From positions 3,258 through 67,257 of the forward strand of contig JAJTFH010000007.1 of assembly GCA_021298395.1 (NCBI GenBank): 64,000 nucleotides of DNA, read 5' to 3'. This document shows positions 58,917 to 63,051 of this stretch, piece by piece. Each line of letters begins with the position of its first letter. The first letter of the stretch is position 1. The notes beneath the pieces were generated by a model. That model was not told where the DNA came from. It searched no databases and was given only the letters and a program-made list of their open reading frames with translations. A program made the translations under genes and the position numbers. The stretch comes from Gemmatimonadota bacterium. GTDB taxonomy: Bacteria; Gemmatimonadota; Gemmatimonadetes; Gemmatimonadales; Gemmatimonadaceae.

Positions 58917-58958
58917 CGATCCTGCTACCTGGTCCCTGATACCTGGACCCTGCCCCTA
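58917..58958 (-). repeat. CAGG-rich element beginning at rpsJ TAG stop codon (copy B)
   Basis: Minus strand TAGGGGCAGGGTCCAGGTATCAGGGACCAGGTAGCAGGATCG; related to 60501-60535 and 15768-15800. Confidence 0.5.
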
Positions 58959-59264
58959 TTCCACCTTGATCTCGACGTCCACGCCCGCCGGGAGATCGAG
59001 CTTCGTCAGCGCGTCCACCGTCTGGGCACGGGAATCGAGGATGTCGATCACCCGCTTGTGCGTCTTGAGCTCGAACTGCTCACGCGACTTCTTATCGACG
59101 TGCGGCGACCGGAGCACGGTCCACCGCTGCGTCTTCGTGGGAAGCGGGATCGGCCCGGAGACCTGCGCCCCCGTCTTCTCCGCGGTCCGCACGATGTCCG
59201 CCGAGGCCTGGTCGATCACCGCGTGATCGAATGCCTTGAGACGGATACGAATACGTCCAGCCAT
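58956..59264 (-). CDS. rpsJ: 30S ribosomal protein S10
   Basis: [39 protein letters not shown]. Confidence 0.97.
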
Positions 59265-59325: not shown

Positions 59326-60450
59326 TTAGGCGAGGATCTTGGTCACCACGCCCGCACCGACGGTGCGGCCGCCCTCACGGATGGCGAAGCGGAGCTGCTC
59401 CTCCATCGCGATCGGGATGATGAGCTCGATCGTCATCTGCACGTTGTCGCCCGGCATCACCATCTCGGTCCCCGCGGGGAGCTCGATCGCACCGGTCACG
59501 TCGGTCGTGCGGAAGTAGAACTGCGGGCGGTAGCCCTTGAAGAACGGCGTGTGGCGGCCCCCCTCTTCCTTCGTGAGGACGTACACCTCGGCCAGGAACT
59601 TCGTATGCGGCTTGATCGAGCCCGGCTTGGCGAGCACCATGCCACGCTCGATGTCCTTCTTGTCGATGCCGCGGAGGAGGAGCCCGACGTTGTCGCCGGC
59701 AAAGCCCTCGTCGAGGAGCTTGCGGAACATCTCGACGCCCGTGACGATCGTCTTCTTGTCGGAGTTGTAGCCCACGAACTCGAGCTCCTCACCGACCTTG
59801 CACTTGCCGCGCTCGATACGGCCGGTCGCGACGGTGCCGCGGCCGGTGATCGAGAAGACGTCTTCGACCGGGAGGAGGAAGGGCTTGTCGATCTCGCGGA
59901 CCGGCTCCGGGATGTACGTGTCGAGCGCGTCGTACAGCTCCTGGATCTTGTCGATCCACTTCTGGTCGCCCTCGATCGCGCGCACGGCGGCGCCACGGAT
60001 CACCGGGGCGTTGTCGCCGTCGTAGCCGTACTTCGAGAGGAGCTCGCGGACCTCGAGCTCGACGAGGTCGAGGAGCTCGGCGTCCTCGACGAGGTCGCAC
60101 TTGTTGAGGAAGACCACGATGCGGGGCACGTTCACCTGGCGGGCCAGGAGGATGTGCTCACGGGTCTGCGGCATCGGGCCGTCGACGGCCGACACCACGA
60201 GGATCGCGCCGTCCATCTGCGCGGCGCCCGTGATCATGGTCGCGATCGTGAGGATCTTGGTGGAGTCGCGACGCCCCTGCGACTCGGACGCCTTCGCGAC
60301 CTCGTCATAGGCGATGTACTTGGTGCCGAACCCCTTGTCCGCCGAGATCTTGGTCAGGGCGGCCGTGGTGGTGGTCTTGCCGTGGTCGACGTGGCCGATG
60401 GTGCCCACGTTCACGTGCGGCTTGTTCCGCTCGAACTTTGCCTTGGCCAT
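59326..60450 (-). CDS. tuf: Elongation factor Tu, internally shortened (374 aa; G3 DxPGH region absent)
   Basis: [26 protein letters not shown], domain 2/3 sequence intact; [15 protein letters not shown] joins directly to [17 protein letters not shown]. Confidence 0.93.

Positions 60451-60532: not shown

Positions 60533-60535
<3 letters not shown>
60501..60535 (-). repeat. CAGG-rich element beginning at fusA TAG stop codon (copy C)
   Basis: Minus strand TAGGGCAGGACCTCAGGTTGTAGGCTGCAGGATCG. Confidence 0.45.
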
Positions 60536-62650
<2,115 letters not shown>

Positions 62651-63051
62651 CGTCTCAAGGATTCGGTCAGGGTCGGTCGGTCTGGTGCGATGTTCAGGTC
62701 CTGCGGTTCGGTCCAACAAAAACGCGGCTGGACCAGCATTCCCCCCAGCCTGCATCCGGGGAATCGGTCTCCATCCGCTCTCGCCGGGTACAGTCACCAC
62801 TGCAGCATGACTGGGGACCCGCGGCGCGCCGGGCGCACCTGCCGCCCGACGTCAGATTGTCCTGCGCGCTTTTCGGGAACCTCGGCGCTGGGTCACCCCA
62901 GCGGGATCGGTCGGGCTGTCCACTCCCCCCGCGCGTCACTCCAGCCGACGTTGGCGGGCCCATCTGGCCGGGGCGCAGTCCCCCGGGGATGCCGTACGGG
63001 CCATCCGTCGCCGCACCGAGCCGGCCGAGGCCGAACTGGTGTAGCCTGTCA

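Follow-up and report, generated by a model that had tools for sequence, protein, structure and literature searches.

A tuf Gene Without the G3 Motif in a Gemmatimonadota Genome: Very Probably 78 Bases Lost From an Ordinary Gene During Assembly

Introduction

Can a bacterium live on a single elongation factor Tu (EF-Tu) from which the G3 motif DCPGH and the histidine of switch II have been cut out? The question is raised by a tuf gene in the window, which is the whole stretch of 64,000 nucleotides of Gemmatimonadota DNA analyzed here (contig JAJTFH010000007.1 of genome G000). His84 of the PGH motif, a residue conserved universally in EF-Tu, plays a crucial part in GTP hydrolysis stimulated by the ribosome (PMC5311926). 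From what is established about the protein, a cell whose only EF-Tu lacks an entire block of 26 residues should not be viable. A sequence-only reading of the window had left three explanations side by side: a deletion made by the assembly or its consensus, a degenerate second copy of tuf, or a new EF-Tu-like protein. The comparisons reported below best support the first, disfavor the second and make the third very unlikely.

The Gene as Assembled

The features of the locus are collected in Table 1.

Table 1. Features of the tuf locus in the window (nt, nucleotides; aa, amino acids).
Feature	Position	Strand	Remarks	Basis
tuf ORF as assembled	59326..60450	minus	374 aa, without 26 G-domain codons	translation, alignment, TIGR00485
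Junction, 78 nt of relatives absent	60237..60238	minus	removes G3 motif DCPGH and the His of switch II	alignment
tuf 5' part, residues 1-71 (G1, switch I)	60238..60450	minus	DNA identity 97.2% to G013	
tuf 3' part, residues 72-374 and stop	59326..60237	minus	G4, domains 2 and 3	
fusA (EF-G) ORF	60533..62800	minus	upstream neighbor of tuf; of full length by comparison with relatives	
rpsJ (S10)	58956..59264	minus	downstream of tuf; intact	

Translation and length of the open reading frame came out as the sequence-only reading had quoted them, and the in-frame loss of about 26 codons that it had noticed is, by alignment, exactly 26 codons or 78 nt. Against relatives and against E. coli EF-Tu the alignment shows one gap only, in which exactly 26 residues are missing between T71 and M72; owing to a shared C, the junction could equally lie one base away. 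The missing residues, SHVEYE(T)..RHYAHVDCPGHADYVKN (26 codons, by alignment), comprise a strand of the G-domain, the G3 motif DCPGH with the catalytic His, and switch II, all of which are present in the intact relatives aligned. Retained are G1 (GHVDHGKT), G4 (NKCD), the G2 threonine of switch I (T68, which aligns with the Thr of ITINT in E. coli) and domains 2 and 3, which align to the relatives without gaps. Translation and alignment thus agree with the list of lost and kept motifs first given.

By its sequence the 374-aa product would be assigned to EF-Tu, the factor that binds GTP and delivers aminoacyl-tRNA. Scored against the equivalog model TIGR00485 it reaches 613.9 bits (cut-off 522.4), as compared to 702.4 bits for an intact relative. 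Because the protein passes this curated EF-Tu model, automatic annotation would name it tuf and would not flag the deletion, and the earlier warning that a plain tuf annotation would mislead is borne out.

The Switch I Loop

The absence of RGITI from switch I had been joined to the deletion as part of the same anomaly. RGITI is indeed absent from the window EF-Tu, but the joining was wrong because the loop is a trait of the lineage. In the window protein and in the aligned intact relatives the loop exceeds that of E. coli by five residues and replaces the ARGITINT region; some of its residues are substituted by Ala, Pro or Ser among the relatives, and every intact relative aligned has such a loop. 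A strict DNA pattern for the long switch I, requiring SHVEY after it, matches 67 of 200 genomes within the phylum. In a planctomycete-related set, drawn from the phylum to which a genome labeled Planctomycetales belongs, it matches two of 79. No paper describing an EF-Tu switch I longer by five residues was found in a literature search. From the sequences, the absence of RGITI is to be read as a natural switch I variant, widespread in the phylum and separate from the deletion.

Relatives and the Junction

The alignment to tuf of close relatives, which had been proposed as a check, found the 78 nt in place in those relatives whose sequence spans the junction point, genomes of the same genus among them, and thereby supports an artefact. 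The closest relative, G013, and the single-contig genome G012 are among the intact relatives carrying exactly the 26 codons at this point; the stretch is present in close relatives and absent only in the window genome. The tuf genes of the same genus (G013, G005, G001, and G012) share with the window copy the fusA-tuf-rpsJ locus, the long switch I, G1, G4 and domains 2 and 3, and the same-genus matches are 91-99% identical in protein over residues 69-374; unlike them, and unlike bacterial EF-Tu (TIGR00485) in general, the window copy is without the 26 residues holding G3 and the switch II His. DNA identity to G013 is about 97% on both sides of the junction, and a species chimera was rejected since the values are equal (97.2% in the 5' part, 97.4% in the 3' part).

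The joined, i.e., deleted, form was then sought elsewhere. Its pattern matches one of 395 genomes of the phylum, which is the window genome itself. A degenerate pattern, less strict and assuming MITGAA after the junction, was run over about 85,000 species genomes (genome_contigs), a scan that may leave out records of the window genome; it gave six matches, none of them EF-Tu once translated. In viral_contigs the joined form had no match, and a search of the literature for an EF-Tu with a deletion of DCPGH found no paper.

Some properties of the junction count against an error of assembly. The deletion is in frame, for which the chance is one in three, and the microhomology of the flanks, judged from the sequence of the relatives, is only one base. 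With no more than this base in common, the flanks offer no obvious repeat that could have caused a false join, and a repeat-mediated deletion was rejected. Nor does DNA structure account for an error: the folding of the segment is not unusual (z = -0.28), and a DNA hairpin promoting deletion was likewise rejected.

In G013 itself tuf is split over two contigs, C51 (L040) and C89 (L041). The end of C51 falls 42 nt inside the stretch that is missing from the window tuf, and the two contigs differ in 15 of the 383 bases of their overlap, which suggests mixed strains or two copies.

Copy Number and Selection

Genome G000 (1.82 Mb, 76 contigs) is rated 100% complete. The search for a second full-length tuf, also proposed at the outset, found none across its contigs; the window copy is the only one found, the remaining matches being distant GTPases of about 33% identity, and the missing peptide was found nowhere else in the genome. 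Among the matches listed, G012 and G005 (the latter in three contigs), both of the same genus, have one tuf each. Two tuf genes are found in G037, G041, G053, G055, and G057, which belong to other genera of the same order. One of the two copies in G041 (G041:C12:8704-9624) is interrupted by one in-frame TGA, and the second is uninterrupted.

The deletion could be real and reside in a dispensable second tuf, the intact gene having been neither assembled nor binned. The two-copy genomes of the same order speak for this, as does the fact that in draft assemblies duplicated tuf genes may be collapsed into one or go missing; G000 is in 76 contigs. Against it stand the single tuf of G012 and G005, the position of the window copy in the fusA-tuf-rpsJ locus, where the single tuf of the genus sits, and the strong constraint on its 3' part. 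Compared with G013 this part has 21.5 synonymous and 2.5 non-synonymous differences (dN/dS 0.036, or about 0.04) and is under strong, normal purifying selection; the 5' part, with three differences of each kind, is too short for selection to be judged. We consider an undetected intact copy unlikely. A degenerate tuf pseudogene was disfavored in the same way, there being no further lesion in the gene: a degenerate second copy does not agree with the only tuf found, standing in the fusA-tuf-rpsJ locus, with its remaining codons under strong purifying selection.

The surroundings of the gene are sound. The order fusA-tuf-rpsJ matches that of relatives of the same genus. In a comparison that took in rpoB, rpoC, rpsL, rpsG, fusA, rpsJ, rplC, rplB and others (gene names assigned by our reading of the open reading frames), no gap of at least four residues was found in rpoB, rpoC, rpsL, rpsG, rpsJ or rplC against relatives, and no frameshift or other gap of comparable size in the conserved gene cores in parts of about 93 kb of the contig. 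The largest other gaps against G013 are of 5-6 residues, e.g., in the tail of rplD, which is rich in Ala and Lys. Where fusA seems to have larger gaps against more distant relatives, these lie in an upstream extension of the listed ORF or in overlapping antisense frames. A generally error-ridden contig was rejected, the conserved neighbor genes being intact. That the contig looks accurate outside the junction, with no N in the part that was read, also counts against an assembly error.

A true deletion carried by a minority strain could have been taken into the consensus, the cells concerned being dead or having another copy. The junction without a repeat that would ease a false join, and the strain mixture seen in tuf of G013, would fit; a consensus, however, should not pick a minority variant, and a second genome with the deleted form was found neither in the phylum sample nor in the genome_contigs scan, so that this explanation is very improbable. 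Still further from being credible, to the point of being nearly negligible, is a working EF-Tu or EF-Tu-like protein, the single copy of the organism, that functions without G3, switch II and a normal GTPase switch. In its favor the reading frame is preserved, the remaining protein is conserved, and the side chain of the G3 Asp is not absolutely required: the substitutions D81A, D81F, and D81K retained ribosome-stimulated GTPase activity in vitro under the conditions tested (PMC13351119). The same Asp is, however, virtually invariant in nature (PMC13351119), and the loss of the strand, the DCPGH loop and the His goes far beyond one side chain. The protein would have to serve as the sole EF-Tu of the cell, no compensating change is visible, and among the 395 genomes of the phylum no other has the deletion.

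How the 78 Bases May Have Been Lost

We therefore favor, with high confidence, a local error of assembly or gap closing by which an ordinary, single-copy, essential tuf would have lost 78 bases, because the gene is one that cannot be lost and, apart from a clean excision with no counterpart elsewhere, is intact. The bases would have been dropped at one point of the gene; a scaffold join, a local reassembly or a mixture of strains are possible routes. In all likelihood, as we infer from the comparisons, the deletion does not exist in the organism: its cells would still carry the 78 nt, and the EF-Tu encoded by their true tuf is almost certainly a normal one, about 400 aa long and with DCPGH intact.

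Local assembly errors yielding incorrect protein-coding genes are known from metagenome-assembled genomes (PMC7111523). The window tuf resembles them in the clean join within one gene, the otherwise good contig and the wrong protein; it differs in that the junction has been judged by comparison of sequences and that G000 is only presumably a metagenome assembly. In this group, assemblies are prone to break at tuf. Besides the split gene of G013, no near full-length tuf is among the matches listed in 10 of 49 high-quality relatives (counted by hand: G014, G019, G020, G022, G025, G029, G033, G040, G054, and G060), in which the gene was probably dropped or broken during assembly.

Implications

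An EF-Tu functioning without G3 would, if true, overturn what is currently known of this protein, and the evidence strongly opposes it. What the locus does teach is caution: a genome of high completeness may hold a broken essential gene that is annotated as normal, and alignments or work on GTPase variation that use such a record could be misled.
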